A stretch of 64,000 bases of DNA from Thermophilibacter provencensis (GTDB lineage Bacteria > Actinomycetota > Coriobacteriia > Coriobacteriales > Atopobiaceae). Under the pieces are notes generated by a model. That model did no database searches. It was given only the letters and a program-made list of their open reading frames with translations, and was not told the origin of the DNA. The position numbers and the translations under genes are program-made. Below are positions 3 to 63,661 of the stretch, one piece after another (the first letter of the stretch is position 1; each line of letters starts with the position of its first letter). Location of the stretch: assembly GCF_030372065.1 (NCBI RefSeq), contig NZ_JAUDEA010000001.1, positions 1 to 64,000 on the forward strand, written 5' to 3'.

Positions 3-2186
3 TGCTGCGCGCTGGGCGCGCTCACTCTCGTGCCGCTCCTGAGCCTCTTTCGCCGCGGCGCCTGGGAGGCGCCGTGCCTCGTGATGCTCATCGTCGCGCT
101 GGGCGTGGGCTCGGCCGTCCCCGCGGAGCTGCGCGCCCGGCGCGCGGCTCGTCCCCTGCGGGCGGGCGCATCGGCGCTTCTCGCGCTTGCCCTTGTTACG
201 TCTGGGCTCATGGTGACGTCCTCCGTCTTTGAGGCGCGGCGCGGCTTCACGCTCCTCGAGTCAACGGCCGAGCTCACTCACGCCGCAGACGCCCCCGGGG
301 AGACGGAGAACGCCGGCGAGGAGGCCGCGCCGCTCGAGGCTCTTGTCGCCATTGTGACCGACGGCGCAAACCAGCTCGCCGGGGCGCAGACGGATGCCGA
401 GAGCGAGGCCTGGGACCTCGTGATCGTGCTCGGGGGCACCGCGGTCTCGGCCGTGGCCGCGCTGCTCGCGGGCTCAAGGGAGCTGCGCTGCTGCACGGCG
501 CTCATCCCCCTTGGCATTGCCGTGGCGGACCAGCTGGTCATGGGTGCCGTGCGACCGGTTTGGACGGCGGCGGTCGTGGCGCTGGGCCTGCTGCTCGCGC
601 GCGGGGCGGGACGCCCCTCGCGCGGCGCCCTGCGGCTGGGGGTCGTGGTGCTTCTTGCCTGCGGGCTTGCCGCATCCGGCTCGGCGATTGCCTGGGGCGC
701 CGGAGCAACCGAGAGCCGCCTGGGCCAAGGCGACGAGGGCGGCAGTGTGCCGGCCGCCGAGCAGTCTGACGTACCGCGCATCGAGACGCTCGTGGACCTC
801 TCGGCAAACCTCACGAGAAACTCCTCCACCGTGGCGCTCACCTACACCACGTCAGTGGGCAGACCTCTCTACCTGCGCCTTGGCGTGCTCGACCGCTTTG
901 ATGGCAGCGAGTGGCGCTTCTCGGACAAGGGGTCGGCGCTCTACGAGGAGGTCAACTGGAGCCTTTACGACGGCATCATTGGCTACGCGCGCGGCGAGGG
1001 AACCACGTTCGTAACGACCATCTGGACCGACGGGGATGCGGTCCCCGCGCCGCCGGGAACGCGCGCGGTGCGCAGCCTCGACGAGCGGACCTACGTGATG
1101 AACGGCACCTACGTGGAGCCCCTGCGGGATGCCACGGAGGCGGACGTGTTCGTGCAGAGCCTCGAGCAAATCAGGGGGTCCGGCGCCCCGGTGGACCTCA
1201 CCGGCGGCGACCACGCGGCAGAGCTTGAGGTGTTTGGCTCGGTGCCCGAGAGCGTGAGCGCCGTCGTGGAGGCGGCGCGCGCGGACGGCATAGAGGGAAG
1301 CGACTACGTCGGGCGCGCCGAGGCGGTGCGCTGGCTCATGGCGTACTTCTCGTCCGAGGACTTCACCTACTCCGCAGCGGCGCCGGGCGGCGACGGGAAG
1401 GACAACCTCAGCGCCATCGGCGACTTCCTCACGCAGAAGCGCGGGTACTGCACGCACTACGCCACGGCGTTCACGGTGCTCGCTCGGCTGCTCGGCGTTC
1501 CCGCGCGCGTGGTGATGGGCTATATGCCCTCGGACGCAACGGACGAGAGCGGCAACTACGAGGTCACGATGCGCCAGCTCCACTCGTGGAGCGAGGTGTG
1601 GATCGACGGCATCGGCTGGGTGGGCGTTGACGTGACGCCAGCCGCCACGAGCGAGGGCGTGGCGGTGGACGACCTTCCCACCGAGCCGCAGGTACAGCCG
1701 GATGAGAGCCCCGTGGACGAGACCCCGCAGGTGCCTGAGGCCGATGCCCCCGAGCCGCCCGACGAGCAGGATGGCCAGGAGCCCTCCGCCGGCGAGAACG
1801 AGGCCTGCCAGGACGTGTCCGAGCTGCCGGGCTGGGTGGCGCCGCTGGGTGGCGCCGTGCTTGCGGCCGGCGTGGGGGCGCTCGCGGTCCTTCTCGCCCG
1901 CCGTGCGCGACTCGCCCGGCTGCGACGCGGGGACTGGGACTACGCCTGGCGCCGCGTCTGCCGCACCGCTCGCAGGGCACGCCTCTCCTGGGGACCGGAG
2001 GCCACCGAGAAGGACGTTGCGGAAGTTATCTGCAACACGCTCTCGGACGAGGGGCTTGCGCGGGCCGTGCGCCACGTGGCGAGAAACGCCTGCCTCACGC
2101 GCTACGGAAGCGGCGCGCCCGCAACGGGCGCCGAGAAGCTCCCCGACCTTCTCGCCCGCCTCAAGGGCGCGCTGCGACAGAAATGA
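3..2186 (+). CDS. Transglutaminase-like membrane protein (TgpA/DUF3488 type), 5' end outside window
   Basis: The reading frame is open to the left edge, so the true start lies upstream; the first internal candidate is a GTG at 30. Residue numbers here count from that GTG. The N-terminal third is a series of hydrophobic segments. An extracytoplasmic region follows with a transglutaminase core: catalytic Cys in YCTHYATAF near residue 474, His in QLHSW near 518 and Asp in GVDVTP near 534. A Pro/Glu-rich linker, one membrane segment near 605-625 and a basic cytoplasmic tail finish the protein, as in TgpA-type proteins of actinobacteria. These often sit beside a MoxR ATPase and a DUF58 protein, which would be off the window to the left. 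The physiological substrate is unknown. Confidence 0.85.
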   Translation, partial: CCALGALTLVPLLSLFRRGAWEAPCLVMLIVALGVGSAVPAELRARRAARPLRAGASALLALALVTSGLMVTSSVFEARRGFTLLESTAELTHAADAPGETENAGEEAAPLEALVAIVTDGANQLAGAQTDAESEAWDLVIVLGGTAVSAVAALLAGSRELRCCTALIPLGIAVADQLVMGAVRPVWTAAVVALGLLLARGAGRPSRGALRLGVVVLLACGLAASGSAIAWGAGATESRLGQGDEGGSVPAAEQSDVPRIETLVDLSANLTRNSSTVALTYTTSVGRPLYLRLGVLDRFDGSEWRFSDKGSALYEEVNWSLYDGIIGYARGEGTTFVTTIWTDGDAVPAPPGTRAVRSLDERTYVMNGTYVEPLRDATEADVFVQSLEQIRGSGAPVDLTGGDHAAELEVFGSVPESVSAVVEAARADGIEGSDYVGRAEAVRWLMAYFSSEDFTYSAAAPGGDGKDNLSAIGDFLTQKRGYCTHYATAFTVLARLLGVPARVVMGYMPSDATDESGNYEVTMRQLHSWSEVWIDGIGWVGVDVTPAATSEGVAVDDLPTEPQVQPDESPVDETPQVPEADAPEPPDEQDGQEPSAGENEACQDVSELPGWVAPLGGAVLAAGVGALAVLLARRARLARLRRGDWDYAWRRVCRTARRARLSWGPEATEKDVAEVICNTLSDEGLARAVRHVARNACLTRYGSGAPATGAEKLPDLLARLKGALRQK

Positions 2187-2218
2187 CGGGGCGGAGGAAT
2201 TCTGCCCTCCGCCCCGTC
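2185..2218. terminator. Bidirectional terminator-like hairpin between convergent genes
   Basis: A perfect 13-bp inverted repeat (GACGGGGCGGAGG and its complement) with an 8-nt loop. It begins inside the stop codon of the transglutaminase gene and lies about 40 bp before the stop of the convergent secreted-protein gene. There is no clear T run, so termination in either direction is inferred from the stem strength and position. Confidence 0.6.
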
Positions 2219-2259
2219 GCGACAACCCGGAACCGCTCCGCTCGGCGCGCCCGGAGTGA

Positions 2260-4173: not shown

Positions 4174-6198
4174 CTACATGAGCTCGCAGACCTGAGTGGC
4201 AAAGGCCACGGGGTCCTCGGGAAGGATGCCCTCGACGAGCAGGGCCTGGTTGTAGAGCAGGCCGGCGTAGAGCTTGACCTTCTCGGCGTCGCCCGCCTCC
4301 TGAGCGGCGCGCAGCTTCTCGAAGACCGGGTGCTTGGCGTTGACCTCGAGCACGCGGACGGCCTTGGGCGCCTGCTCGGCCTCGGGGCCGGCGGCGAGGA
4401 CCTTCTCCATCTCAAGGCTGAGCGGGCCCTCCGAGGTGATCACGGCGGGCGCGCCGTCGGCGGCAAGGCGCGTGGACACCGCGACCTTCTCGACCTGGCC
4501 CGCCAGCGCGTCCTTCATGGCGTCGAAGAGGCCCTCGTTTGCCTTGGTGGCCTCCTCGGCCTCCTTCTTCTCCTCATCGCTCGCGAGGTCCAGGTCGCCG
4601 GAGGTCACGTTCTTGAGCTCGACGGTGCGGTCCTCAAGCTCGGGCTCCGCGCCGTCGGCCACGGCCTTCTCGGCGGCCTCGCGCTCGGCGTCCGTCTCGT
4701 AGACCTTGGGCAGGCCCTTGGCCGTGAAGTCGCGCATGGTCTGGAAGCAGAACTCGTCCACGTCCTGCGTGGCCAGAAGCACGTCGTAGCCCTTGGCGAG
4801 GACGGCCTCCACCACGGGCATCTTGGCCAGGCGGTCGCGGTCGTCGCCGGCGGCGTAGTAGATGGCCTTCTGACCGTCCGCCATGGCGGCCACGTACTCC
4901 TGGAGCGTGACCATCTTCTGCTCGCGTGCGCTCCAGAAGAGCAGGAGACCCGCGAGCTCGTCCTTCTTCATGCCGTAGCTCGAGTAGATGCCGTACTTGA
5001 GGCCGCGGCCAAAGTTCTCGAAGAACTTCTCGTAGGCCTCGCGGTCGTCGTTGCGCATGGCCTCGAGCTCGCTCGTGATCTTCTTCTCAATACGGCGCGC
5101 CATCGCCTGGAGCTGGCGGGTCTGCTGGAGCGTCTCGCGGGAGATGTTGAGGGAGACGTCGGAGGAGTCCACCACGCCGCGGACAAAGTTGTAGTAGTCA
5201 GGCAGGAGGTCGGCGCACTTCTCCATGATGAGGACGTTGGAGCTGTAGAGCTCGAGGCCCTTCTCGTAGTCGCGGCTGTAGAGGTCAAAGGGCGCCTGGC
5301 CGGGGATGAAGAGCAGGGCGTCGTACTCGAGCGCGCCCTCGGCGTGCAGGCTGAAGGTGCGCGCCGGGTCTGCCCAGTCGTGGAAGGTGGACTTGTAGAA
5401 CTCGGCGTACTCCTCGTCGGTGACCTCGGAGGCGTGCTTCTTCCAGATGGGGGTCATCGAGTTGATGGTCTCGAGCTCGGTGTAGTCCTCCCACTCCGGC
5501 TTGTAGTCGTCGCCGGCGTCGGCGGGCTTCTCCTTCTCGCGGCTCTTGGTCACGAGCATCTTGACGGGATAGCGCACGTAGTTGCTGTACTTCTTGATGA
5601 GCTCGCGGAGCTTCCACTCGCTGAGGAACTCGTCGTAGCTGGCCTCCTCGACGTTGTCCTTGAGGGTGAGGATGACGTCGGATCCGCAGGCTGCGCGGTA
5701 GGCGGGGTCGTCGGCGGCAACGGGCTCGATCGTGTAGCCCTCAATGCCGTCGGAGGTCCAGCGGTTGCACTCGTCGGAGCCCCAGGCGCGCGTGACGACG
5801 GTGACCTCCTTGGCCACCATGAAGGCGGAGTAGAAGCCCACGCCAAAGCGGCCGATGATGTCCACCGCGTCGCCCTGGGCCTCGGCGTTTGCGGCCTTGA
5901 ACTCCTCCGAGCCGGAGTGGGCGATGGTGCCGAGGTTCTTCTCGAGCTCCTCGGCCGTCATGCCGATGCCGTTGTCGGAGACCGTGATGGTGCGGGCGTC
6001 CTTGTCAAAGGCCACGTTGATGGCGAGGTTAGCCTGGTCCACCCGCACGGAGCTATCCGTGAGGCTCTTGAGGTAGAGCTTGTCGATGGCGTCCGAGGCG
6101 TTGGAGATAAGCTCGCGCAGGAAGATCTCGCGGTTGGTGTAGATGGAGTTGATCATGAGGTCGAGGAGCTTCTTGCTCTCTGTCTTGAACTTGCGCAT
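4174..6198 (-). CDS. htpG: Molecular chaperone HtpG (Hsp90)
   Basis: A cytosolic ATP-dependent chaperone of 674 aa, slightly longer than the usual 620-640. The GHKL ATPase domain is at the N-terminus: NASDAIDKL (about 34-42), DNGIGM (about 95-100) and GRFGVGFYSAF (about 133-143). The middle domain carries the conserved NISRETLQ region, and the C-terminal dimerisation region ends in CELM. The ATG at 6198 has an upstream AAGGGAAG. A 674-residue length with an acidic segment in the C-terminal third (TSGDLDLASDEEKKE) is consistent with actinobacterial homologues. It stands alone as a single-gene unit. The promoter was not resolved; no CIRCE-like element was seen in the 94 bp upstream. Confidence 0.97.
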   Translation of the reverse strand: MRKFKTESKKLLDLMINSIYTNREIFLRELISNASDAIDKLYLKSLTDSSVRVDQANLAINVAFDKDARTITVSDNGIGMTAEELEKNLGTIAHSGSEEFKAANAEAQGDAVDIIGRFGVGFYSAFMVAKEVTVVTRAWGSDECNRWTSDGIEGYTIEPVAADDPAYRAACGSDVILTLKDNVEEASYDEFLSEWKLRELIKKYSNYVRYPVKMLVTKSREKEKPADAGDDYKPEWEDYTELETINSMTPIWKKHASEVTDEEYAEFYKSTFHDWADPARTFSLHAEGALEYDALLFIPGQAPFDLYSRDYEKGLELYSSNVLIMEKCADLLPDYYNFVRGVVDSSDVSLNISRETLQQTRQLQAMARRIEKKITSELEAMRNDDREAYEKFFENFGRGLKYGIYSSYGMKKDELAGLLLFWSAREQKMVTLQEYVAAMADGQKAIYYAAGDDRDRLAKMPVVEAVLAKGYDVLLATQDVDEFCFQTMRDFTAKGLPKVYETDAEREAAEKAVADGAEPELEDRTVELKNVTSGDLDLASDEEKKEAEEATKANEGLFDAMKDALAGQVEKVAVSTRLAADGAPAVITSEGPLSLEMEKVLAAGPEAEQAPKAVRVLEVNAKHPVFEKLRAAQEAGDAEKVKLYAGLLYNQALLVEGILPEDPVAFATQVCELM

Positions 6199-8339: not shown

Positions 8340-9878
8340 ATGAGGGACATCGACGCGATCATCGAGCAGATCATTGCGGCGAGCCGCGCCAAGGCCGGCC
8401 ACGCGTTTGCCAGCTCGCGCGTCTATTCCGACGAGCCAATCATCATGCGCGGATCTCAGCTCGCAAGCTACGTTCCTGAGCCAATTCGTCAGATGCGCGC
8501 GCTCGCGCGACGCCCCGAGGCACGCAGCTGGTCGGACGCGCGCCTCTTCGTCGAGCAGGCCCGCCTCATGGCGGGCTACACTGACGACTTCCCCTACGAG
8601 GGAACGTTCTCGAGCTACTTCCCCACCTACGCCGTCATGGGCGACCGCCAGCTGCGCGGGTACTTCACCTGGCGCACCCGTGTGAGAGATGGGCACGTCG
8701 AGAAGACCTCAGCGTCATTTGCCTACGTATACCTCTACGAGCTCATAAATGGCATAGGTGCCGAACCTGGGGAGCCGGCCTTCCGCGCCATCGAGGCCTT
8801 TTGGCAGGCATATCGCACGTTTGAGCCCACCATGGACCGCTATGTTCGCCCGTGGCTCGTCGATTACGTGGTGTACCACGGCCTCGACGCCACGCTCGCC
8901 ACGCCCTACCTTAACTCGGAACACGACCGCGCCGTCTGTGCACTTGCCAAGGTCGAGAAGTCCGCGCTGCTTGCAGCCCCCACAAGGGGACGCCGAAAGG
9001 AGACGAGAGACTTCGGCGCGCTCCTCGCCTCCGGCACAGGGCTCATCGACGCGCTCGACCTGCTCTCGACCTACAGAATCCGCGAGTCGCGCCTCTACCG
9101 CGATGACCCCGACGCGCTCACCACAGTCACCTTTGCCGTGTTCGAGCAGCTCGCTCGCTACTATCACGGCAGCCGGACGCAGGGCCTCACGGAGAGCCTC
9201 TTCGGCGTGCGCCACGCCATGCCCCACCTCATGTTTGCCTCAGCCGTCTTCTACCCGGGCGCAAAACATGAAGACTGCGTTTTTGAGCTGGACGAGACCT
9301 GCCGCTTTACCTGCCAGAATGGCATCTGGTCCTGCGACGCGCTCCATGACGGTGGCGCCCGGAGCGCAAAGCTGGGCCAGATCCTTCGCGCCGTGGACCG
9401 TCAGCTGCGCCTTGCGCTCGACTACCCGCACCCGCTCAAGGAGCACGGCGACCCCAAATACCTCATCAAGATCATTGACCGCGAGGCCCAGGACTACCTC
9501 GCGTGGCGCCGGGCCCATGCGCCGCGCCGCATTGAGATCGACCTCTCCAAGCTTGCCGGCATCCGCGCGGGAGCCGCCCTAACGCGCGAGGCGCTGCTCG
9601 TGGACGAGGAGCGCGAGGAGGAAGTTGTCGCACCGGAGCCTCATCAGGGGGACGAGAAGGACACTTCCCTCAACCTTACCCCCGCCGAGCTGGCGCTTGT
9701 TCGCACCCTGCTCGAGGGCGGACAGCCGGATCCGGCTAACGTCGACCTCCTCGTCGACTCGATCAACGAGAAGCTCTTCGACCTCGTTGGCGACACGGTC
9801 GTGGAATTTGACGACTCGGGCGCACCCACGCTCATCGAGGACTACGTCGAGGACGTGCGCGAGGCGCTCGGCGCGTAA
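8340..9878 (+). CDS. TerB_N / TerB_C domain protein
   Basis: 512 aa, ATG after GGGAGGAACC. The N-terminal half matches the TerB_N pattern: YAVMGDRQLRGYFTWRTRVRDG (about 99-120) followed by FAYVYLYELINGIG (about 126-139). The C-terminal 100 residues are acidic and end in LIEDYVEDVREALGA, resembling TerB_C. TerB-type domains are predicted partners in membrane-linked stress and phage-defence machines. The next gene is a BrxD-like ATPase and an SF2 helicase follows at 12267, so a joint DNA-defence or processing role is inferred. The gene has its own SD and no obvious co-transcription signal with the hairpin element upstream. Confidence 0.8.
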   Translation: MRDIDAIIEQIIAASRAKAGHAFASSRVYSDEPIIMRGSQLASYVPEPIRQMRALARRPEARSWSDARLFVEQARLMAGYTDDFPYEGTFSSYFPTYAVMGDRQLRGYFTWRTRVRDGHVEKTSASFAYVYLYELINGIGAEPGEPAFRAIEAFWQAYRTFEPTMDRYVRPWLVDYVVYHGLDATLATPYLNSEHDRAVCALAKVEKSALLAAPTRGRRKETRDFGALLASGTGLIDALDLLSTYRIRESRLYRDDPDALTTVTFAVFEQLARYYHGSRTQGLTESLFGVRHAMPHLMFASAVFYPGAKHEDCVFELDETCRFTCQNGIWSCDALHDGGARSAKLGQILRAVDRQLRLALDYPHPLKEHGDPKYLIKIIDREAQDYLAWRRAHAPRRIEIDLSKLAGIRAGAALTREALLVDEEREEEVVAPEPHQGDEKDTSLNLTPAELALVRTLLEGGQPDPANVDLLVDSINEKLFDLVGDTVVEFDDSGAPTLIEDYVEDVREALGA

Positions 9879-9954: not shown

Positions 9955-11250
9955 ATGGGAGACGCACCGAGAGTGCCCAAGCGCATAGCGGCGGTCATCA
10001 TCAACTCCCTCAAGGGAGGCGTGGTGCCGCGCATTGGCCTCCCCTACGTCACCGTGGGCCGCGAGCGCGAGATTGGCGCGCTCCTGCACGACCTTGACCT
10101 CGTGGCGGACGGCGGAGCGAGCTTCCGCTTCCTCGTGGGACGCTACGGCGCCGGCAAGAGCTTCCTGCTCCAGACCATCCGCACGCACGCCATGGGCAAG
10201 GACTTTGTGGTGGCTGACGCGGACCTCTCCCCCGAGCGCCGCCTCCAGGGCGGGCAGGGCCAGGGACTTGCCACGTACCGCGAGCTTGTCCGTAACCTCT
10301 CCACCAAGACCCGGCCCGAGGGCGGGGCGCTTCAGCTCGTGCTCGACCGCTGGGTGGCGGCGCTGCGCGAGACGCCGGACGCGGAGGCAGCGCTCGCCGC
10401 GCAGCTCGGGCCCATCCAGGAGCTCGTCTGCAGCTTTGACTTCACGCAGGTCCTCAAGATGTACTACCGCGCGAGCCTCGAGGGAGACGACGAGCGCAAG
10501 GCCAGCGTCATCAAGTGGCTGCGCGGCGAGTTCCGCACCAAGACCGAGGCCCGCGCGGAGCTGGGCGTCAACGCCTGCATCACGGACGAGACCTGGTACG
10601 AGTACCTCAAGCTCTTTGCGCAGTTCCTCGTGGGCGCCGGCTACCAGGGCCTCATCGTCCTCATCGACGAGCTGGTGAACCTCTACAAGATTCCCAACGC
10701 CACCTCGCGCCAGTACAACTACGAGAAGATCCTCACCATGTACAACGACACGCTCCAGGGCAAGGCACACCACCTAGGAATCATCATGGGCGGCACGCCG
10801 CAGTCCATCGAGGACCGTCGCCGCGGGGTCTTCTCCTACGAGGCGCTGCGCAGCCGCCTCACGCAGGGGCGATTTGCGAGCGCGGGCCTCGCCGACCTCC
10901 TGGCCCCCGTCATTCACCTCGAGCCGCTCACGTATGAGGAGCTCCTTGTACTCATCGAGAAGCTCGCGGAGATTCACGCGGGCTACTTCGGCTACGAGCG
11001 CAGCCTCACCGAAGAGCAGCTCGTGGGCTTCCTTAAGGTGGAGTTTGGGCGCGTGGGCGCAGACACCCACCTCACGCCGCGCGAGGTCATCCGCGACTTC
11101 ATCGAGCTTCTCGACATCGTGTACCAGAACCCGGGCACCAACGTTGCCGCGCTTCTCAAGACGGATGCGTTCTCCGGCGCCGTGGCCGCCCCCGTTGCCG
11201 CCGCAGGCGAGAAGGACGTCGACGCCGCCTACGCCGAGTTCACCATCTAG
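9955..11250 (+). CDS. BrxD-like P-loop ATPase (DUF2791, BREX ATP-binding domain)
   Basis: 431 aa, ATG after GAGAGGAGCAGGGC. It begins with RIAAVIINSLKGGVVPRIGLPYVTVGRE as in the DUF2791/BrxD family. The Walker A motif is GRYGAGKS (about 62-69) and the Walker B is LIVLIDELVN (about 232-241). A conserved MGGTPQSIEDRRRGVFSYEALRSRL segment follows at about 280-304. BrxD proteins occur in BREX type 2 and related phage-defence loci, usually next to an Lhr-like helicase. Here the neighbours are a TerB_N protein upstream and an SF2 helicase downstream, with no PglX methylase or PglZ in sight. It ends 4 bp into the convergent lipoprotein gene. Confidence 0.85.
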   Translation: MGDAPRVPKRIAAVIINSLKGGVVPRIGLPYVTVGREREIGALLHDLDLVADGGASFRFLVGRYGAGKSFLLQTIRTHAMGKDFVVADADLSPERRLQGGQGQGLATYRELVRNLSTKTRPEGGALQLVLDRWVAALRETPDAEAALAAQLGPIQELVCSFDFTQVLKMYYRASLEGDDERKASVIKWLRGEFRTKTEARAELGVNACITDETWYEYLKLFAQFLVGAGYQGLIVLIDELVNLYKIPNATSRQYNYEKILTMYNDTLQGKAHHLGIIMGGTPQSIEDRRRGVFSYEALRSRLTQGRFASAGLADLLAPVIHLEPLTYEELLVLIEKLAEIHAGYFGYERSLTEEQLVGFLKVEFGRVGADTHLTPREVIRDFIELLDIVYQNPGTNVAALLKTDAFSGAVAAPVAAAGEKDVDAAYAEFTI

Positions 11251-19202: not shown

Positions 19203-19288
19203 GCGCCCCTCCCCTCGTATCGGCCACAAGGATACGCGAGAAGGACGCGGCAGTTCCTAACGTTTGCTTAAGGGCGCGAGACGGGCAA

Positions 19289-44660: not shown

Positions 44661-44668
44661 GAGACCCC

Positions 44669-45959: not shown

Positions 45960-47228
45960 TCACACCAGAACGTGGTCGTTCATGACCGGCTCGAGCCCCA
46001 TGTCGCGCATGGCGGTGCACATCTCGGCCAGGCTGCGGCTGTCGTCGATCTCAAACTGGTCGTCGCCCTCCTCAGCCTGGTGCGTATGCTCGCCGATGCC
46101 CGTGGACACGCCGGCCGAGACCTTGGTGGCCGTGATCGTGGCCACGTGGTCGCGGAAGCGCGCCGACTCGCGCGACGAGACCGTGACGCCGGCAAAGGGC
46201 ATGAACAGGCGGTAGGCGCAGATGACCTGCAGGAGCTGCGCCTCGCTCACGTGCGGCCCGTTGGGCGTGACGGCGCCCGCGGCGGGACGCAGGCGCGGGC
46301 ACGAGAAGGAGATCTCCGCGTGCGGGTAGGCCCGGCTCACGTAGTAGGCGTGCAGCGCGCAGGCGAGCGCGTCGTGGCGAAACTCCGAGAGGCCCAGCAG
46401 CGGAGCGAAGGCCACGCCGCGCATGCCGCCCCTGAGCGCGCGCTCCTGCGCCTCGAAGCGGTAGGGCATGATGCGCTTGCGGCCGCGAACGTGGAGCTTG
46501 GCGTAGCGCGCCGGGTCATAGGTCTCCTGGAACACGGTCACGAAGTCCGCGCCAGCCTCGTGCAGGCGCGCGTAGTCGGCCACGTTGGCGGGGTACACCT
46601 CGACGCCAACGTTCCTGAAGCGCGCGGCCGCGAGCTCGCAGGCGCGTGCGATGTAGTCCACGTCCGACGTCACCGGGTCCTCGCCGGTGAGCAGCAAGAT
46701 CTCCTCCTGGCCCGTGGCGGCGATGGCGTCGAGCTCGGCGATGGTCTGCCCCTCGTCCAGGCGGGCGCGACGGATGCCGCTCTCGCAGTTGAAGCCGCAG
46801 TACACGCAGCGGTTCTCGCAGTAGTTTGCCAGGTAGAGCGGCGTGAAGAACTGGATGTTGGTGCCAAACCAGCGCACGCGCTCGGCACGGGCCCGCTCGG
46901 CCATCTCCTCGAGGAAGGGCTCTGCCGCGGGCGACACGAGCACACCGAAGTCGGTGGGCTCCACCACGTCAGCGTCGAGCACGCGGCGCACGTCGGCGGC
47001 GGTCACGGCGTCGGGATCGTAAGCCTCCACGGCGTCGAGCACGCGGTCGAACATGCCGTTGTCCAGGACGTCCATGTCGGGCAGGAAGGTCATGGGGTCC
47101 AGGCCGTAGTCGGTGCGGATGGCGCGCGCCATGTCCTTCTCGTCCATGGAGACGATGCGGCGGCAGCGCTTGCCCACCGGCATGGTCTCAGGCCCCGCGA
47201 CCTGCACGTTCTTCTCGTCCGCGCTCAT
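45960..47228 (-). CDS. thiH: 2-iminoacetate synthase ThiH
   Basis: 422 aa; start ATG 47228 forms an ATGA overlap with the thiG stop, SD GGGGGAGGAGGCCCG. Radical SAM enzyme cleaving tyrosine to dehydroglycine for thiazole formation: the 4Fe-4S motif is [17 protein letters not shown] (about 133-149), with [13 protein letters not shown] and [16 protein letters not shown] downstream and the BATS domain at the C-terminus. Use of ThiH rather than ThiO fits an anaerobe. Confidence 0.96.
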
Positions 47229-52835: not shown

Positions 52836-53987
52836 ATGCCCTTCTCGCCAGCAGACATCCTGGAAACCGCACGCCCATGGATCGTCGCATGGGGCGTGCC
52901 CGTTGCCTACCTTGTCCTGTGCGTCGCAATGAACCGCGTGAGCAAACGGCTCGATCCGCCGATTCCTGGCGAGATTTCCGCAACCGCCGACGTCCCCGAG
53001 CTGCACCCGGTGCTGCTCGGCGCGCTGCGCTGCCACGAGGAGAGCGAGCTCTCCAACAAGGGCAACGCCTACGAAGTCGCCCTCGCAGCGGTCGTTCGCA
53101 TGCTGGGACACGGAGCCGCGACCTTCACGGCGCGCGGCCACGCAACGGGCGTTATTTCGACGTCCGACGAGGACGAGGACGCGGGGCCCATTGTCACAAA
53201 AAAGCGCCGCAGGGACCAATTCAACCTCAAGGAGAGGCTGATTCACTCCTACGGCGCTCACCTGCGCCTCGCGGTCGAGGCAGCTGGACTGAGCCGCTAC
53301 GACCTTGACGCGCTCGAGATTGTCATGCCACCGGACACCGTGAACGCGAACGTTGAGGAGCTCTGCAAGCACGCGAGAAACGCCGATCAGTACCCTCAGC
53401 TGGGCTGCTTCCTCAAGGGTTACGCAGACGACCTCTGCTCGGCGGGGCTCGCCCATAGACCAAACCCGCTCGTCTACCTTGTATTCAACCCTCTCGTCAG
53501 CATACTCGCCTGCCTCTGGTGCGTGTTCGGGCCGGCCGCCGCGCTCACCGACCCAAGCCCCGCACTCGCAGGTGTGTCGGTTGTCCTGATCGTTGCGGTC
53601 ATGATCTTTCGTGCATTCTTCGTTGACCTGGGGCTGAGGCTCACTCCGGCGGGCTGCCAGGTGCTCGCCCATGCGTCAGCGAACGTCAGCTGGGCCGCGA
53701 CGGCGCGCAACGGCGACGCGTCCTTGGTACGGGAGCTCGCTGACGAGCAAGTTGCCGACCTGCTTGCGGTCCTTCTCGCCATGGGTCGCCGAGACCTGGC
53801 AGGCGACCTGGCCGATCAGCTCGTTTACGTGAAGGGGGAGGGCGATCCGGACGCGCGCGGCACGTCCATGGCAGAGAGCTTCTGCGCGCGGCGGCGCTAC
53901 ATAGACGCCTCAACTATGAGGCAGGACCTCTCCCCTGTCGACCTGCTGATCAAACAGACTGACGATATGGTCGACAGCATGAGCTAG
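52836..53987 (+). CDS. Hypothetical membrane protein
   Basis: 383 aa; ATG after TTGGAACACGC, a weak SD. One membrane segment at about 15-33 and a helical pair at about 212-262 (LVYLVFNPLVSILACLWCVFG and AGVSVVLIVAVMIFRAFFVDL). The region ELHPVLLGALRCHEESELSNKGNAYEVALAAVVRML resembles the conserved start of the cytosolic part of DUF2207 proteins, but the match is weak. No enzyme motif is seen. Stands alone between the YtrA operon and the DUF364 gene. Confidence 0.6.
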   Translation: MPFSPADILETARPWIVAWGVPVAYLVLCVAMNRVSKRLDPPIPGEISATADVPELHPVLLGALRCHEESELSNKGNAYEVALAAVVRMLGHGAATFTARGHATGVISTSDEDEDAGPIVTKKRRRDQFNLKERLIHSYGAHLRLAVEAAGLSRYDLDALEIVMPPDTVNANVEELCKHARNADQYPQLGCFLKGYADDLCSAGLAHRPNPLVYLVFNPLVSILACLWCVFGPAAALTDPSPALAGVSVVLIVAVMIFRAFFVDLGLRLTPAGCQVLAHASANVSWAATARNGDASLVRELADEQVADLLAVLLAMGRRDLAGDLADQLVYVKGEGDPDARGTSMAESFCARRRYIDASTMRQDLSPVDLLIKQTDDMVDSMS

Positions 53988-53996
53988 GCCGTGGCG

Positions 53997-54794
53997 TCAG
54001 CGCGCGAGCGTCGCGCGGCCACGGGGCGTGGCGACGAGCACGTGCTCGAGGGCGCCGGAGCCGTGGAGCGGGGCGCCGCAGGTCACGACCTCGCGGGCCA
54101 GCGCCGCGTCGGCAACCACGCTGCCGGCGACGAGGTCCGCACCCGCCTCCAGCACCGGCGCGCAGATCGTGGCCGAGGGGCCCACGACGCAGGTGAGCGC
54201 GTCGCGCGCGAGCTCGAGCAGCCGGGGCATGGTCTTGTTGGCGAGCGTCATGCCCGTCATGACGACGAGGTCCGCGCCCGGAAGCAGGTACTCGCAGGCA
54301 GTGTCCGGCAGGTCCGTGTCCGCGCGGGCGGTGCGCTCCAGCACGGCAACGTCCGCGTGCTCCGCGATGGCCGCGAGGTGCGGGAAGTGGCCGACCACCA
54401 CCGTGCGGGGACGCGAGCCGTCGTTCTTCTCCGCCGCCACGCGCGCTGCGACCGGGACGAGAAACACAAACGGGTCCGTGCTCTCCGCATCCTTGATCAG
54501 GCCCAGCGCGTCCAGACGCTCGCGCTGGTTGTGCCAGGCGTTGAGCGCCGCGACGCCCACCGACGCCACCTCGAAGTCCCACGACTTTGCGCAGGCAGCA
54601 AGCTCGCGCAGCGGCCTGTCTGACCAGCCGCGCCCCATGCGCAGGCGCGCACCGCCGCGATGGAGCGCCGCCACGCCCGTCCCGCACTCGGCCTCGACAA
54701 GGCAGTGGTGAGCGCCCATGGCCACGTGCCGCACGAGGACGTCCTCAGGAATCTGGGCAATCATCTGATCGTAGAGCGACCACGCATCTGTCAT
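53997..54794 (-). CDS. DUF364 protein (DUF4213 N-terminal), metal-chelatase-like
   Basis: 265 aa from the ATG at 54794, where GGAGG has a five-base spacing (an ATG one codon earlier is possible). N-terminal DUF4213-like region (SLYDQMIAQIPEDVLVRHVAMGAHHCLVEAECGTGVA) and the DUF364 Rossmann part with VVVGHFPHLAAIAEHADVAVLER, AGADLVVMTGMTLANKTM and VVGPSATICAPVLEAGADLVAGSVV. The family is linked to heavy-metal or molybdenum handling by gene neighbourhood. Divergent from the THEP1 gene and near the FecCD-type transporter, which supports that link. Confidence 0.85.
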   Translation of the reverse strand: MTDAWSLYDQMIAQIPEDVLVRHVAMGAHHCLVEAECGTGVAALHRGGARLRMGRGWSDRPLRELAACAKSWDFEVASVGVAALNAWHNQRERLDALGLIKDAESTDPFVFLVPVAARVAAEKNDGSRPRTVVVGHFPHLAAIAEHADVAVLERTARADTDLPDTACEYLLPGADLVVMTGMTLANKTMPRLLELARDALTCVVGPSATICAPVLEAGADLVAGSVVADAALAREVVTCGAPLHGSGALEHVLVATPRGRATLAR

Positions 54795-55508: not shown

Positions 55509-56606
55509 CTACTCCCGCACGGCGCCGCGCATCAGGGCGTCGTACTCCTCGTCCGTGAGGTCGTGACCGTAGAAGAGCTGGTAGTACTCCCCCACCACGT
55601 CGCGCAGGTCGTCGTCAAAGCGGTCCGGGTAGCACAGGCGCGCGTACCACTGCAGGCCAATGATCTGGTTGACAGACGCCGGCATGGAGATCCAGTTGTA
55701 CGGCACGCTCGGCGCGCGGAAGTAGTTGCCGGACTTGATAGCCGTCATCTCCGCCCAGGCGGGATCGTCGCCAACGGTGTCATAAATCGAGTCGCCAACA
55801 AAGACGATGAGCTCGGGGTCCCAGAGCGCAATCTGCTCGAGACCGATCTCGTTGCCCTTGCCGCTGGACGACGGGTTGTCCACCACCACGACGTTCTCGG
55901 AGCACAGGTCAATGATGCCGGACTGGAAGCCGCCGCGCGCCATCGCGTTGGTGCCCGTGTCACCGAGCAGGTACGCCGCGCGCGGGCGCTCGTCCTCGGG
56001 GACCTCCGCCACGACGGACTCCACCTCGGCAACGGCGTCGCGGCAGTACTCCGCGAGCTCAGCGGCCTTCTCGGAATTCAGGATGTCCGCAAGCTGGTCG
56101 TAGAGGTCAGCGTAGCTGTGGAGGTCGGTCGAGTCGATGTGCACGCACGGGATGCCAATCTGGTCCTGCAGCGTGTCCAGCTCCTCGGTGAGCGAGTCCT
56201 TGGCCTCACCGATGTCGATGATCAGCTGCGGGTCCGCCGCGGCCACCGCCTCACGGTTGAAGTCGCCCTTGCCACCGTAAATCTGACCAAAGACGGGCAG
56301 GTCAGCCAGGTCCTCGCCCAGATAGGCAAGCTGCTCGTCCGTGAGCTCGCCGGAGAGGCCGACCATCTTCTCGGGCGCCACCGTGAGCAGCACCTGCTGC
56401 GCCACCGGCCCGGACGCCGCGATGCGCTCGACCTCGGCAGGGATCTCCACCTCGCGCCCGAGCGAATCCGTAACCACGCGCGTGGTCGCCTGCTCCTCCG
56501 CGGGCTGCTGCTCGGACTGCTGCGCGGCCGGCTCGCCGCCACACGCCCCAAGCGACACCGCCACCGCAAGCGCCGCAAGCGCCGACAAGAACGTTCTTCT
56601 CCTCAT
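55509..56606 (-). CDS. ABC transporter substrate-binding lipoprotein (FecCD-transporter type)
   Basis: 365 aa; its ATG overlaps the ATPase stop (ATGA). Lipobox SLGAC with Cys near 22, then a Gln/Glu-rich linker and a TroA/BtuF-like two-lobed fold (VVTDSLGREVEIPAEVERIAASGPVAQQVLLTVAPEKMVGLS). Such proteins bind chelated iron, cobalamin, or molybdate/tungstate. The operon begins with a YqeB-XdhC fusion behind a ModE-like operator, so molybdate or tungstate is the best guess. The three cognate genes are complete. Confidence 0.88.
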   Translation of the reverse strand: MRRRTFLSALAALAVAVSLGACGGEPAAQQSEQQPAEEQATTRVVTDSLGREVEIPAEVERIAASGPVAQQVLLTVAPEKMVGLSGELTDEQLAYLGEDLADLPVFGQIYGGKGDFNREAVAAADPQLIIDIGEAKDSLTEELDTLQDQIGIPCVHIDSTDLHSYADLYDQLADILNSEKAAELAEYCRDAVAEVESVVAEVPEDERPRAAYLLGDTGTNAMARGGFQSGIIDLCSENVVVVDNPSSSGKGNEIGLEQIALWDPELIVFVGDSIYDTVGDDPAWAEMTAIKSGNYFRAPSVPYNWISMPASVNQIIGLQWYARLCYPDRFDDDLRDVVGEYYQLFYGHDLTDEEYDALMRGAVRE

Positions 56607-57422: not shown

Positions 57423-57498
57423 TCAGCCGCGCCCCCTCTCGCCCGCCGCGTGGCCGGAGCGCCAGGTTCTTCTCGCCCGCATCAGCCGCGCCCCCTCT
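57423..57498. repeat. 17-bp direct repeat flanking the permease-ATPase spacer
   Basis: TCAGCCGCGCCCCCTCT occurs at 57423-57439 and again at 57482-57498, offset by 59 bp. The second copy carries the permease stop; the first sits directly upstream of the ATPase start. The spacer contains one GTTCTTCTC motif. The pattern looks like a duplication or insertion that created the spacer. Confidence 0.7.
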
Positions 57499-58498: not shown

Positions 58499-60390
58499 GC
58501 TCGCTCGCCCTTCCCCGGCCCCTCGCCGCGTCGCTCGGCGCGACGGCGGACGAGCTGCGCCGTGATGGCAAGCGCGATCTCCGATGGCGTGACGGCACCG
58601 ATGGCCAGGCCAATGGGCATGGCAACGGCGTCGATGCGCTCTTGCGGCACGCCGGCAGCGGCGAGATGCTCGCGCGCGAGGGCGGCCTTGCGGCGACTGC
58701 CAATGCAGCCCACGTAGGCGGGCTGGATGTCGCGGGTCAGCACGGCGAGAAGAACCGTCTCGTCGTAGGCGTGCCCGTGCGTGAGAACGACGACGGAGTC
58801 GTACGGGGCAATGGTGGCGCTTGCAGCAAGCTCGTCAAACGAGCCGCAGGTCACGGACGCTGCCTGCGGCAGGCGCTCGCACGTGGCAAGCTCCGGGCGG
58901 TCGTCGTAGACGTGGACCTCAAATCCCGCGGCGGCGGCAAGCCCCACCAGGGCCGCACCCACATGCCCGGCGCCAAAGACGTGCAGGCGGCTCGTCGCGG
59001 AGGCGGTCTCGCGGTAGGTCATTGTCGTCTCGTCCCAGCTGGGGTGAGCGGGGCACGGCGCTGCGGAAAGGGTCAGCGTTGGCGCAGCTGGGCTGTCCCA
59101 GCGCTCCTCCACGGACACGGCCTCCCCGCGCTCGAGCGCATCTCGCACGGAAAGAAGAATGGGCAGGTCGTCGGCTGTGAGCGTGCGGACGGCGAGTAGG
59201 GCGTCCCCACCGCAGGCCATCGCGTCGCCAGTGTGGTACCACTCGAGGACGGGCGCGGAGCCAGCCTGAGCCGCGCGAGCGCGCTCGATGGCGAGCTGCT
59301 CGATCGCTCCCCCGCCAACGGTGCCGATGAGCTGGCCGTCCGCCGTCACGGCAAGGCGCGCGCCCTCGTGGCGCGGCATCGACCCGCTTGTGGCGAGCAG
59401 GCTCGCCAGCCCAACGTGGCGGCCGACGGCGAGCTCGGCCACAAGCGCGGAGACGAAGCCCGCGTCCGAGAACGAGCCGTTTAGGGGCGGCGTGTGGACG
59501 GTTTTCTCGGTAGAAACGTCCGGAACCTGCCCGCTAGTGGCTGCGGGCGGCGTGCGGACGGTTTCGGCGCCGGAAACGTCCGGAACCCGCCCGTTCTTCT
59601 CGGCAAGCACACCAGAGAGGGCGAGAATGGCCTCCAAAACGCCACCGCCCACAGCGAGCGCCTTGTCAGACGAGCTCTTGATGTACTCCGGGTGGCAGCG
59701 CGGGTCAACGTCACCGGACTTCATGCCCTTGCGCACGGGAACGCCCGCCTGCAGGAGCCCCCGCACCACGCCGTCGATAGTGGCGCGCATGGGCTCGCCG
59801 GCCACCGTGGCGCACACGTCACCGGCCGCCACCTGCGCGCCGATCTCCACGCACGGCTCGAAGACGCCGTCCGCCGGCGCGCGCATCACACGCTCCCCCG
59901 CGTAGCCACCGATGAGCCCGGGCACCGCCGTATTGGGGATCGGAGAGCCCTCGTAGTAAACGCGCCCCAGGTAGTGGCCGCGCATCGTCTCCACAGCGGC
60001 GTCGCAGTCCTCGCGCGCGGTGAATCCGGGCCCCACGCCGATCACAATGGGTGCCATGTCGCGCGCGGTGCCGAGGTTGCGCTTGGCCAGGATGGCGTCA
60101 ACCAGCACGTCCGGCGCGAGGCCGCGCACGCAGGAGGCCTCCGGGTCCACGAGCACAGCAACGTTGCCCGCGGCCACGACGGCACGCGCCGCAGCGGCGT
60201 CCGCGCAGAGCACACCGCGCACGTCCTCCACGCGGACTTCTCCCAGGCGGATGGCTTCCGAGAAGCACACGGTGCGCCGGATGGACGTGGGCACCGCGAG
60301 GTCGCACATCACGACCTGCATGCCCGCGCGGTACAGGCGCAGGGCGATGCCCGAGGCAATGTCCCCTGCTCCTCGAATCACGACCAACAT
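58495..60390 (-). CDS. YqeB (EF2563 family) - XdhC fusion, selenium-dependent molybdenum hydroxylase accessory protein
   Basis: 631 aa. Residues 1-262 are YqeB/EF2563-like (MLVVIRGAGDIASGIALRLYRAGM, VVIGVGPGFTAREDCDAAVETMRGHYLGRV), found only with selenium-dependent molybdenum hydroxylases. Residues about 304-631 are XdhC (SLLATSGSMPRHEGARLAVTADGQLIGTVGGGAIEQLAIERA, then the Rossmann LHVFGAGHVGAALVGLAA and GCIGSRRKAALAREHL). XdhC inserts sulfurated molybdenum cofactor. The joint, residues 264-303, is a 20-residue unit repeated twice, encoded by the 60-bp tandem repeat at 59481-59600. Normally the two are separate genes. First gene of the transporter operon, behind a ModE-like site. Confidence 0.9.
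   Translation of the reverse strand: MLVVIRGAGDIASGIALRLYRAGMQVVMCDLAVPTSIRRTVCFSEAIRLGEVRVEDVRGVLCADAAAARAVVAAGNVAVLVDPEASCVRGLAPDVLVDAILAKRNLGTARDMAPIVIGVGPGFTAREDCDAAVETMRGHYLGRVYYEGSPIPNTAVPGLIGGYAGERVMRAPADGVFEPCVEIGAQVAAGDVCATVAGEPMRATIDGVVRGLLQAGVPVRKGMKSGDVDPRCHPEYIKSSSDKALAVGGGVLEAILALSGVLAEKNGRVPDVSGAETVRTPPAATSGQVPDVSTEKTVHTPPLNGSFSDAGFVSALVAELAVGRHVGLASLLATSGSMPRHEGARLAVTADGQLIGTVGGGAIEQLAIERARAAQAGSAPVLEWYHTGDAMACGGDALLAVRTLTADDLPILLSVRDALERGEAVSVEERWDSPAAPTLTLSAAPCPAHPSWDETTMTYRETASATSRLHVFGAGHVGAALVGLAAAAGFEVHVYDDRPELATCERLPQAASVTCGSFDELAASATIAPYDSVVVLTHGHAYDETVLLAVLTRDIQPAYVGCIGSRRKAALAREHLAAAGVPQERIDAVAMPIGLAIGAVTPSEIALAITAQLVRRRAERRGEGPGKGERA
59481..59600. repeat. 60-bp tandem repeat with internal palindrome at the YqeB/XdhC joint
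   Basis: Two copies in exact 60-bp register. The second contains GGCGGCGTGCGGACGGTTTC and GGAAACGTCCGGAACC, which fold on each other; the first is diverged in the loop (TTCTCGGTAG). In frame they encode GRVPDVSGAETVRTPP and GQVPDVSTEKTVHTPP. Confidence 0.9.
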
Positions 60391-60564: not shown

Positions 60565-60667
60565 GGGTATGTACACTATTGCAGTTTTGATGTGCTTCTC
60601 GCAACGCCCTGACCTGCGGTTCTTCTCGCCGGTCTGCCGAGAAAGACTTTAAACTGTGTACATACCC
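60565..60667. repeat. 103-bp fold-back element, copy 2
   Basis: Ends GGGTATGTACAC (60565-60576) and GTGTACATACCC (60656-60667) are perfect complements and the stem continues with AGTTT/AAACT. The interior CAACGCCCTGACCTGCGG and TTCTTCTCGCC matches the element at 38126-38231. It occupies the 287-bp gap between the YqeB-XdhC promoter and the desulfurase stop. Confidence 0.8.
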
Positions 60668-60677: not shown

Positions 60678-61826
60678 TCACCCCGCGGCAATCTCGCGGA
60701 CCGCGGCGGCTGCCACATCAACCTCTTCTTCCGTGTTAAACCAGCCGCAGCTCAGTCGAACAATGCCCCGCCGCTCGGTCCCCAGGGCGCGATGCATGAG
60801 CGGCGCGCAGTGAGCACCGGCGCGACAGGCTATCCCCCAGCCCGCGGACAGCGCGTCGGCAACCTCGGCGGAGTCCAGGCCGTCCACGTTGAGCGCCACG
60901 ATGGAGCCGCAGCGCTCGGGCGCCACAGGCCAGCCGCCGTAGACCGTCACGCCCGGCACGTCGCGCACACCCTCCCACAGTCGCCGCGCCAGCTCGTGCT
61001 CGCGAGCGCCCACCGCCGCGGGCCCACCGTTCTTCTCGATAAACGCTATTCCGGCAGCTAGGCCCGCAAGGCCGTGCGCGTTGAGCGTCCCCGCCTCCAT
61101 GCGCGTGGGCCACTCCTGCGGATGTCGGCGCTCAAATGAGTGCACGCCGGAGCCGCCCTCGGCCCACGGCCGCATGCCTATGCCCTCTGCCACCGCCATG
61201 CCACCCGTACCCTGCGGACCCATGATGCCCTTGTGCCCGGTGAAGCACACCACGTCAATGTCCATGGCAGTCATGTCCAGCGGCACGGCTCCGGCGGTCT
61301 GCGAGGCGTCTACCAGCACAAGAGCGCCCGCGGCATGCGCGATCTTGGCCACGCGGGCCACGTCCACGAGGTTGCCCGTCACGTTGGAGCCGTGCGTCAC
61401 CGCCACAAGGCGCGTGCCCGGCGTGACCAGGCGCTCAAGCTCCTCCATGTTGAGAAACCCGTGCGCGTCGCAGCCGGCGTAGGCAACCTCAACCCCCCGC
61501 TCGTCCGCAAGGCGCGCGAGCGGGCGCAGCACGGAATTGTGCTCGAGCACCGTGGTCACCACACGGTCCCCCGGCCCCACCAGCCCGGACAGCGCCGCGT
61601 TGAGGGCAGCGGTGGAGTTTGCCGAGAAGCACACGTGGTCGGCGCGCGGACAGCCCAGAAGAGCCGCCACCGCCTCGCGGCAGCGCAGCACCACGCGCCC
61701 CGCGTCGAGCGCGCCCGCCGAGGCCCCGCGGCCCGCGTTGCCAAGCGAGCCCATCGCCTCCACGACGGCGTCCACGACCTCCTGCGGCTTGCGCATCGTC
61801 GTCGCCGCGTTATCGAGATAGATCAT
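60678..61826 (-). CDS. Class V aminotransferase-type cysteine desulfurase (selenium/molybdenum cluster)
   Basis: 382 aa from the ATG at 61826 (a GTG nine bases upstream is possible). PLP enzyme: IYLDNAATTMRKPQEVVDAVVEAMG, internal aldimine Lys in VVCFTGHKGIMGPQGTGG, catalytic Cys in WGIACRAGAHCAPLMHRALGT. It belongs to the desulfurase subfamily that travels with YedF, DUF3343 and YqeB, where it may release sulfur or selenium for the molybdenum cofactor. Same strand as DUF3343, YedF and the dehydratase genes upstream. Confidence 0.93.
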   Translation of the reverse strand: MIYLDNAATTMRKPQEVVDAVVEAMGSLGNAGRGASAGALDAGRVVLRCREAVAALLGCPRADHVCFSANSTAALNAALSGLVGPGDRVVTTVLEHNSVLRPLARLADERGVEVAYAGCDAHGFLNMEELERLVTPGTRLVAVTHGSNVTGNLVDVARVAKIAHAAGALVLVDASQTAGAVPLDMTAMDIDVVCFTGHKGIMGPQGTGGMAVAEGIGMRPWAEGGSGVHSFERRHPQEWPTRMEAGTLNAHGLAGLAAGIAFIEKNGGPAAVGAREHELARRLWEGVRDVPGVTVYGGWPVAPERCGSIVALNVDGLDSAEVADALSAGWGIACRAGAHCAPLMHRALGTERRGIVRLSCGWFNTEEEVDVAAAAVREIAAG

Positions 61827-61849
61827 CGACCCCACGTCCTTCTCGCAAA

Positions 61850-62788: not shown

Positions 62789-62860
62789 GTTGTCTCCCAT
62801 CCGGCCCGTCCGGGCCTCGCTCAGCGGGCGAGAAGAACCTCAACCCGCGTCTCGTACAGC

Positions 62861-63646
62861 CTACTCCAGCTCCTGCGCCACGAGCGCTGCGCCAATGGCG
62901 CCGGCGAAGCGCGCCTCCGGGCATGTGCTCACGCGCGCGCCGAGCTTCTCGCCCAGCAGCTCGACCACTAGCTCGTTGTCGCAGAGCCCGCCCGTGAGAT
63001 AGTACGGCGTCGCGCCACCCGCAGACCCCACGAGCGTTGCCACGCGGCCAACAACGCTCTCGATCACGCCGCGCGCGATGTTCTCCCGCGGCTCCCCGCG
63101 GCCCACGAGGCTGATGACCTCGCTTTCCGCAAACACGGTGCACATGCTCGTGATCTGCGTCGGCTCGCCCGCGCGCGCCAGCGCCGAGAGCTCGCCGTGG
63201 GACACGCCCAGACGATCCGCCATGATCTCCAGAAACCGACCGGTTCCCGCCGCGCACTTGTCGTTCATCACAAACTTGGCCACGCGAGCGCCGCGCAGGC
63301 GAATCACCTTGGTGTCCTGGCCGCCCACGTCGATCACGGTGCCGTCGGCCCCAAAGAGCCACGCGGCGCCGCGGCCGTGGCAGGTGATCTCGGTCACAAC
63401 CTTGTCCGCATACGGCACCGCCACGCGTCCGTAGCCCGTTGCCACCACGCGCGTGCCGAACGCGGAAAAGGGGCTGTCTCCCTTCCACGTCTCGAGCGCT
63501 GCGCGAGCGCGCCCGGCAGCATCCACGCTGGAGAAGCCCGTGGGCATGAGCTCGGTGCGCACGAGCTTACCGCCCGCATCCACCACGGCGACCTTCGTGG
63601 CCGTGGAGCCGATGTCAACGCCTATGCCCAGGCGCCCAGCCGGCAC
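62861..63646 (-). CDS. 2-hydroxyacyl-CoA dehydratase activator-type ATPase (BadF/HgdC family)
   Basis: 261 aa from a GTG at 63646. ASKHA-fold ATPase with GIGVDIGSTATKVAVVD, VIDVGGQDTKVIRL, two cluster Cys residues in MNDKCAAGTGRFLE (about 126-139) and TSMCTVFAESEV. A homodimer would share one 4Fe-4S cluster and drive electrons to its partner with ATP. The loop ETWKGDSPFSAFG near 52-64 is encoded by a decayed GGG-CTGT-CCC palindrome. Followed on the left by YedF and led on the right by a dehydratase-type subunit gene. Confidence 0.92.
   Translation of the reverse strand: MPAGRLGIGVDIGSTATKVAVVDAGGKLVRTELMPTGFSSVDAAGRARAALETWKGDSPFSAFGTRVVATGYGRVAVPYADKVVTEITCHGRGAAWLFGADGTVIDVGGQDTKVIRLRGARVAKFVMNDKCAAGTGRFLEIMADRLGVSHGELSALARAGEPTQITSMCTVFAESEVISLVGRGEPRENIARGVIESVVGRVATLVGSAGGATPYYLTGGLCDNELVVELLGEKLGARVSTCPEARFAGAIGAALVAQELE
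63464..63486. repeat. Decayed GGGACTGTCCC-like hairpin inside the activator gene
   Basis: GGAAAAGGGG-CTGTCT-CCCTTCC keeps most of its stem pairing. In frame it encodes WKGDSPF, the same GDSPF as at the end of the ABC ATPase (56623 copy). It falls in a variable loop of the activator family. Confidence 0.5.
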
Positions 63647-63661
63647 GTCCTTCTCGCCTCC

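Follow-up and report, generated by a model that had tools for sequence, protein, structure and literature searches.

A candidate DNA uptake word in Thermophilibacter provencensis and related Atopobiaceae

The first 64 kb of contig NZ_JAUDEA010000001.1 of Thermophilibacter provencensis (64,000 nucleotides, hereafter the window) are scattered with a short DNA word, the 9-mer GAGAAGRAC, which is found there as 38 exact copies where 0.93 are expected; none of 100 dinucleotide shuffles of the window attained this number. The original prediction had listed 32 copies read by eye and had set about one to chance. All of these positions (11 plus, 21 reverse) are exact matches and the computed expectation agrees with the estimate, while six further copies start at 1887 (minus), 5935 (minus), 14438 (minus), 18227 (plus), 19460 (plus) and 30759 (plus).

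The word is present in two forms, GAGAAGGAC and GAGAAGAAC, every site being an exact match, and it lies in genes in both orientations and between them. These labels come from our own simple codon-model gene caller, which gives about 84% coding DNA and is not a curated annotation. The GAGAAGGAC sites that are sense to a called gene are at 2007-2015, 9654-9662 and 11209-11217 on the plus strand and at 23722-23730, 28164-28172, 28644-28652, 28785-28793 and 47133-47141 on the minus strand. Those in antisense are at 19460-19468, 30759-30767, 30952-30960 and 45315-45323 (plus), and at 1887-1895 and 53769-53777 (minus), and the intergenic ones at 19238-19246 (plus) and at 18792-18800, 31454-31462, 45820-45828, 61836-61844 and 63647-63655 (minus). 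For GAGAAGAAC, sense sites are found at 16901-16909 and 21423-21431 (plus) and at 5935-5943, 47208-47216, 50310-50318, 59593-59601 and 61029-61037 (minus), antisense sites at 18227-18235 and 58747-58755 (plus) and 14438-14446 (minus), and intergenic sites at 26629-26637 and 62830-62838 (plus) and 26593-26601, 57466-57474 and 60619-60627 (minus), the sites at 26593 and 26629 forming a close inverted pair. Finally, the context of three minus-strand sites has no leading C: one of GAGAAGGAC, which reads GGAGAAGGAC, at 29888-29896, and two of GAGAAGAAC at 54423-54431 and 56593-56601.

The original prediction of a genome-wide signal was borne out. The source genome (2,232,826 bases in 35 contigs) holds 1147 copies of GAGAAGRAC (526 + 621) and 57 of the same pattern read backwards. 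A census of 9-mers in 435 kb of this genome, with an order-3 Markov expectation, ranked GGCGAGAAG first, GTCCTTCTC second and GTTCTTCTC third. Alignment of the context of CGAGAAG matches gave GG-CGAGAAG-(R/V)-A-C; whether intergenic, antisense or sense, 83-87% of the matches carry C as the tenth base of the core, and no marked AT-rich flanking segments appear in the motif logo. The consensus is GGCGAGAAGRAC and the near-invariant core CGAGAAGNNC, of which the whole genome carries 3469 copies as against 500 of the reversed pattern. Indeed, in a scan of single changes the consensus itself was found in 31 intergenic and 22 antisense copies (0.73 antisense expected from synonymous shuffling), and each variant altered at one of the eight core positions had between 0 and 2 copies in intergenic DNA and between 0 and 5 in antisense. 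The outer G positions, the R and the A were less strict, which defines CGAGAAGNNC as the core; its sharpness is a direct observation. In a 455-kb sample the 9-mer reaches 0.52 per kb and the core 1.57 per kb. A density near one copy per kb genome-wide is a trait of uptake signal sequences (USS) and DNA uptake sequences (DUS), and the whole-genome counts of both words show it here.

We then asked of the excess how much belongs to coding. Codon-corrected expectations for genic copies were obtained by within-gene synonymous shuffling on the 455-kb sample (20% of the source genome), some counts being made on 435 kb. The core was observed 342 times in sense for 178 expected, and 247 times in antisense for 43.1 or 40.6 expected (two shuffling runs); the 74 kb of intergenic sequence contained another 126 cores. 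When gaps below 30 bases were excluded, intergenic DNA held 124 cores and 64 9-mers against order-3 Markov expectations of 10.8 and 4.2, respectively. The preference for non-coding DNA that is typical of USS and DUS is also found, with 64 of 238 9-mers in the 74.6 of 455 kb that our caller leaves intergenic; similarly, the earlier estimate that about a quarter of the copies are intergenic is close to the 67 of 233 (29%) that we counted in 435 kb. The proteins themselves carry the trace of the word. The tripeptide EK[D/N] was counted 102 times for 22.4 expected from composition, that is 4.5 times too often, and GEK[D/N] 26 times for 1.9, while the reversed peptides KE[D/N] (9 copies) and [D/N]KE (15 copies) are not overabundant. 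The codon pair CTT-CTC, one antisense reading of the word, occurs 207 times against 90 expected. In motif-poor samples from one genome each of genera g31, g9 and g35 (G133), EK[D/N] was found 1, 2 and 0 times against 3.9, 3.5 and 3.3 expected (G-numbers denote genomes, g-numbers genera and L-numbers named or sampled loci). The excess was thus observed directly at the level of DNA: the word acts on DNA and not on protein, and it distorts proteins.

The proposed comparison with sister lineages was made, and GAGAAGRAC exceeds its reversed control in all 31 genomes of the genus searched. The ratio is at least 13-fold in 30 of them and 3.8-fold in G005 (330 against 88). Across the family (140 genomes, 35 genera), g27 is comparable to the source genus in 3/3 genomes (834-1388 against 63-75), several genera are moderate and many lie near background. 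The core pattern is also raised in most genomes of g2, g13, g15, g20, g28, g29 and g34, for example 2806 against 409 in G114 and 1470 against 189 in G090, and more weakly in G032 (459 against 142). Whole-genome counts gave no core excess in g10 (75 against 83) nor in G061 of g18 (134 against 121). Among 296 genomes of the class, GCGAGAAGNAC is raised in 4/4 genomes of g51, which belongs to another family of the same order (160-230 against 18-24); this suggests an old origin or a transfer of the system. The four g51 genomes are G237, G291, G309 and G331. None of the remaining genomes outside the source family has more than 69 copies; their ratios to the controls lie mostly between 1 and 3, and the few higher ones come with small counts (for example 29 against 4 in G236).

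Our table of codon-corrected antisense core excess covers 15 of 27 sample groups, several of them small (13 to 25 antisense matches in g15, g2 and g51). In the source genus, the excess is 6.1-fold in the source genome, 8.0-fold in G028 and 5.0-fold in G005, and it is 5.6-fold in pooled named near relatives. It amounts to 3.0-fold in g27, 5.1-fold in g15, 12.7-fold in g2, 3.0-fold in g29, 7.7- and 4.5-fold in g51, 4.7-fold in named loci of Tractidigestivibacter/Olsenella and 7.6-fold in oral Lancefieldella/Atopobium loci; motif-poor g31, g9 and G133 of g35 give 1.8-, 1.4- and 1.3-fold. Elsewhere, observed and expected antisense cores were 16 and 3.2 in g5, 11 and 1.9 in g13, 25 and 7.3 in g20, 15 and 4.3 in g34, 10 and 3.9 in G138, 10 and 2.6 in g24, 14 and 2.3 in g28, 8 and 2.9 in g19, 3 and 2.1 in g32, and 0 and 0.5 in g18. 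A first g29 sample gave only 3 against 2.2, so that sense-strand coding accounts for part of the high ratio seen in whole genomes of g29. Named loci outside the pools gave 10 against 0.9 (L081), 2 against 1.3 (L092) and 0 against 0.9 (L093).

The variable pair of bases (NN) in the core differs between lineages that carry it. GA and AA lead in the source genome and g27, GA, GG and AA in G028, GA and CG in the pooled named near relatives, AT, AC and TT in g2 (G031), and CC, TG and CT in the Tractidigestivibacter/Olsenella set. In G005 the leaders are CG and CC, which makes it a member of the genus that has kept the core and largely lost the RA preference. These NN counts are modest, come from small samples and owe something to base composition; they likely reflect lineage dialects. 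Both the distribution over lineages and the differing NN preferences are observed directly, and a word shared by a genus or family with dialects, another USS/DUS trait, is seen here, outside the genus in small samples. When the comEC region was aligned with seven named relatives, identity was more frequent at core sites of the source genome than at random 10-mers (for example 12 of 22 in L084 against a fraction of 0.26); we draw no conclusion from this, as each comparison and direction offers 2 to 7 CGAGAAGRAC sites and the alignable part consists mostly of conserved genes. Other abundant words were met as well. The reversed control CNNGAAGAGC is unusually common in G075 of g24 (643 + 620, most other genomes having 100 to 600 in all), which may point to another abundant word in that genome. 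GGCTTTGGC has 5 to 7 copies per roughly 22 kb, for 0.1 to 0.4 expected, in the named Olsenella-like or related loci L079, L083, L085, L086 and L088. Dispersed words like GGGGTACTCCCC in G036 (L035-L037) and like GTTCCCGGGGAGT in G103 (L068-L070) are also present, each 9-mer being repeated 8 to 16 times within 60 kb.

The word has no strand polarity, which we observed directly in three genomes of the genus by GC skew as well as by imbalance within stretches; the strand bias that the original prediction proposed to look for was not found. The core on the strand of positive GC skew was counted 289 against 288 times in 18 stretches of the source genome, and 114 against 134 in G028 and 81 against 73 in G005, in 10 stretches round each of these closed genomes. 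As GC skew is weak in these genomes, imbalance within stretches was also tested independently of skew: none of six chi-square tests in the three genomes revealed an excess (p 0.34 to 0.96), and neither did 23 stretches of the source genome including the window (p 0.45 for the core, 0.74 for the 9-mer). A strand switch after 121 kb, of the kind known for FtsK-orienting polar sequences (KOPS), was ruled out, since both orientations occur in each stretch. Between tandem genes, CGAGAAGRAC is commonest per kb (42 copies in 30.8 kb) and of mixed orientation (23 opposite, 19 same); between convergent genes it is rarest (2 in 7.8 kb), with 7 copies in 9.0 kb between divergent genes and another 7 in gaps longer than 1.2 kb, which add up to 22.1 kb. 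An oriented promoter element was ruled out by this mixed orientation, and a terminator by the poverty of convergent gaps and the lack of enrichment of opposed pairs.

Depletion of the word was directly observed in one mobile insert of the source genome, where about 8553 bases hold one core for 13.4 expected (Poisson P 2e-5) and no 9-mer. Within the window, positions 31463-45314 (about 13.9 kb) are devoid of GAGAAGRAC, yet 14 cores of other NN variants lie in 31500-45200; this insert and this stretch are the whole of the depletion evidence and were picked after being noticed. Ten of the 15 genes called in 31463-45314 were given to Pfam, with matches to PTS IIB, PTS IIC, GH1, GntR-UTRA and ROK, and to FMN reductase, aldo/keto reductase, alpha/beta hydrolase, LysR and phosphomethylpyrimidine kinase. 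With its sugar-uptake and accessory-looking genes, the stretch was possibly acquired. Elsewhere in the window, GC content falls to 0.594 in 24001-28000, as against a mean of 0.665, and this region is perhaps an acquired stretch as well.

The look-up of competence genes that had been proposed found ComEC, DprA, ComEA and a Tad-like locus, and the presence of the competence genes is a plain observation. An open frame for ComEC exists in 31/31 genomes of the genus, and DprA in 30/31, the exception being a genome that is 81% complete. ComEA (SLBB and HHH) adjoins ComEC in the source genome, whose ComEC has as its nearest named relatives Candidatus Olsenella pullicola (76% identity over the best segment), then other uncultured Olsenella and Olsenella sp. 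An285, An290 and An270; this marks the genome as Olsenella-like and makes Atopobiaceae its most likely family. At least one T2SSE ATPase is present in 31/31 genomes of the genus. The source genome has one T2SSE match, of the shorter kind, among the 12 of 33 first-look candidates that were scored, and it clusters with two T2SSF proteins and a ParA-like protein. This cluster appears to be a Tad-like locus, a name that we give from its make-up. In another actinobacterium, Micrococcus luteus, tad genes are required for transformation, according to the portion of PMC4322843 drawn on here. TadE- and TadG-like minor pilins were spotted by eye in G028, as receptor candidates only.

Altogether, we propose that the word works like an uptake sequence of the DUS/USS type, a tag for self-recognition, as a candidate and not a proven member of that class; we put the probability at about 0.65. 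Double-stranded DNA bearing the word would be bound at the cell surface by a receptor, for which a minor pilin of the Tad/Flp pilus is the likeliest candidate, and the pilus would draw the bound DNA in. ComEA and ComEC would then pass one strand to the cytoplasm, where DprA with RecA would recombine it. DNA bearing the word would be taken up and recombined more often, and the word would build up genome-wide on both strands, push codon and amino-acid choice, and stay rare in newly arrived DNA. The receptor, its binding, the bias in uptake and the Tad pilus as uptake machine are what we infer, and a Tad-pilus competence system is probably the reader of the word. A wider claim, on which we are evenly divided, is that uptake sequences evolved independently a third time, and for the first time outside Proteobacteria, in Atopobiaceae and in one or more genera of a sister family. 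The word would be read there by a Tad/Flp pilus in place of a classical type IV pilus; its core CGAGAAGNNC would be common to the lineages, whose dialects would hinder gene exchange. Only Neisseriaceae and Pasteurellaceae are known to have such sequences according to the part of a 2025 paper (PMC12616744) used here, and the authors of a Veillonella study sought such a word and, in the section concerned, report none of at least 10 bp at 100 copies (PMC5397411). In the open-licence literature, we found no uptake sequence in Coriobacteriia and no mention of the word's own letters, and searches on natural competence in Atopobium and on an overrepresented motif in Olsenella returned nothing relevant by titles and starts of abstracts. 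If true, an uptake signal would be new in this branch of life: self-DNA recognition would have evolved anew, with other machinery, in a third case, that of Gram-positive gut bacteria. It would also predict natural transformation in a group for which we found no report, provide a genetic tool for gut commensals that are hard to engineer, and make the co-evolution of receptor and genomic word testable in a new, dialect-rich family.

Several results nonetheless weigh against an uptake function. Natural transformation in Atopobiaceae or Coriobacteriales was not found in open-licence papers. ComEC and the T2SSE ATPase are each present in 137/140 genomes of the family, motif-poor genera included; their presence does not separate motif-rich from motif-poor genera and was rejected as a discriminator. 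In the source genome, the putative flp gene for the major Tad pilin, which we named by eye from GQGTTEYAILVGVLVV and its position, is interrupted by the insert, about 8.55 kb long (G000:C1:311002-319729; L118:7002-15777), with the N-part at C1:319646-319729, next to a serine recombinase, and the C-part at C1:311002-311094. An insert in a putative competence-pilin gene is reminiscent of the prophages in comK. The strain may thus be without a Tad pilus unless it loses the insert or uses a different pilin; flp genes are intact in G028 and G005, and a weak third flp match (E 0.08) lies elsewhere in the source genome. There is also a small overall strand imbalance across the contigs of this genome (9-mers 526/621, p 0.005; cores 1629/1840, p 0.0004), which gene orientation likely causes, since in the sample called genes cover 114 kb of coding DNA on one strand and 267 kb on the other, and the motif is commoner in sense than in antisense. 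Spacing over 164 kb is not more regular than random, with a coefficient of variation of 1.09 for the core (random 1.00 +- 0.06) and 1.28 for the 9-mer (random 0.98 +- 0.10), and close opposed pairs are not enriched (25 opposed and 28 direct neighbours within 60 bp). Perfect copies do not exceed those with a single mismatch, be it for CGAGAAGRAC (213 against 556 overall, 61 against 80 intergenic), GGCGAGAAGRAC (80 against 223) or the core (715 against 1824); 12 shuffled words gave 0-4 perfect and 20-88 single-mismatch copies, far below CGAGAAGRAC. Opposed pairs, even spacing and an excess of perfect copies are usual, not defining, features of uptake sequences.

Other explanations have to be considered. 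To a codon-pair or translational effect, by which a GC-rich genome would prefer the codons GAG-AAG-GAC/AAC, we give almost no credence. The 96 sense copies in frame 0 do lie near the 84.6 expected from synonymous shuffling, but the antisense copies (63 against 8.1) and the intergenic 9-mers do not follow from codons, EK[D/N] is overabundant when its reversed forms are not, and most other members of the class reach only a 1- to 3-fold ratio. The antisense, intergenic and peptide-level counts rule this explanation out, and with it the refutation foreseen in the original prediction, an excess due to Glu-Lys-Asp/Asn codons alone. A polar chromosome signal, either KOPS or SpoIIIE recognition sequences (SRS) for FtsK/SpoIIIE or Chi for RecBCD/AddAB, is very improbable too. 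The letters GAGAAGG do resemble the Bacillus SRS GAGAAGGG, but KOPS and Chi are strand-biased and the lack of strand polarity in three genomes, by within-stretch imbalance and by the weak GC skew, argues against them. We saw no ori-to-dif polarity, as judged without mapped ori and dif, nor the leading-strand bias of Chi. Of the options raised in the original prediction (uptake, Chi-like, segregation or methylation motif), segregation and Chi therefore did not stand, and uptake fits best.

The word might instead mark self DNA for a modification or defence system (methylase, BREX-like, phosphorothioate), which would tell self from foreign DNA by the abundance of the modified word. Such an origin would account for scarcity in one mobile insert, and a non-palindromic word of this length is recognised by some such systems. 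Restriction recognition sites, however, are usually avoided and not enriched 20-fold, and defence genes move often, so that a reach over the whole genus and several related genera would be unusual for them; we regard this origin as decidedly unlikely. Still unlikely, if somewhat easier to entertain, is a site for a non-polar nucleoid, repair or recombination protein, or a word iterated like the cyanobacterial HIP1 and kept by repair or mutational bias. The sharpness of the core would suit it, as would the thousands of copies that the core has on either strand, inside genes as well as outside them. However, HIP1 is a palindrome and our word is not, no non-polar site of such density is known apart from uptake words and HIP1, and the differing NN pairs of relatives and the scarcity in the insert would better fit a signal of self-recognition.

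Finally, the word can be set beside known systems. Like KOPS and SRS, the loading sites of FtsK and SpoIIIE, it is short and purine-rich with similar letters, but it differs from them by its absence of strand polarity. With HIP1 it shares a very high abundance in genic and intergenic DNA; unlike the palindromic HIP1, GGCGAGAAGRAC is not self-complementary and it is scarce in the insert. The uptake sequences are closer. USS and DUS occur at close to one per kb without orientation bias, prefer non-coding DNA, are shared by a genus or family, form close opposed pairs and are spaced more evenly than random, as stated in the part of PMC1626085 relied on here. The word differs from the Pasteurellaceae USS in that perfect copies do not exceed single-mismatch ones, spacing is not more even than random and the logo has no marked AT-rich flanking segments; it resembles the USS as described in the same part of that paper, a 9-bp core at about one per kb, orientation-unbiased and enriched in non-coding DNA (PMC1626085). 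From the Neisseriaceae DUS it differs by unrelated letters, by a host among Actinomycetota and not Proteobacteria, by close opposed pairs that are not enriched, and by a single T2SSE match of the shorter kind (12 of 33 candidates scored) inside a Tad-like locus. In return, it has in common with the DUS, as presented in the portion of PMC3630211 drawn on here, a length near 10-12 bp, a copy number in the thousands that is spread over either strand and over genic and intergenic DNA, and an invariant inner core with outer positions that differ between lineages.

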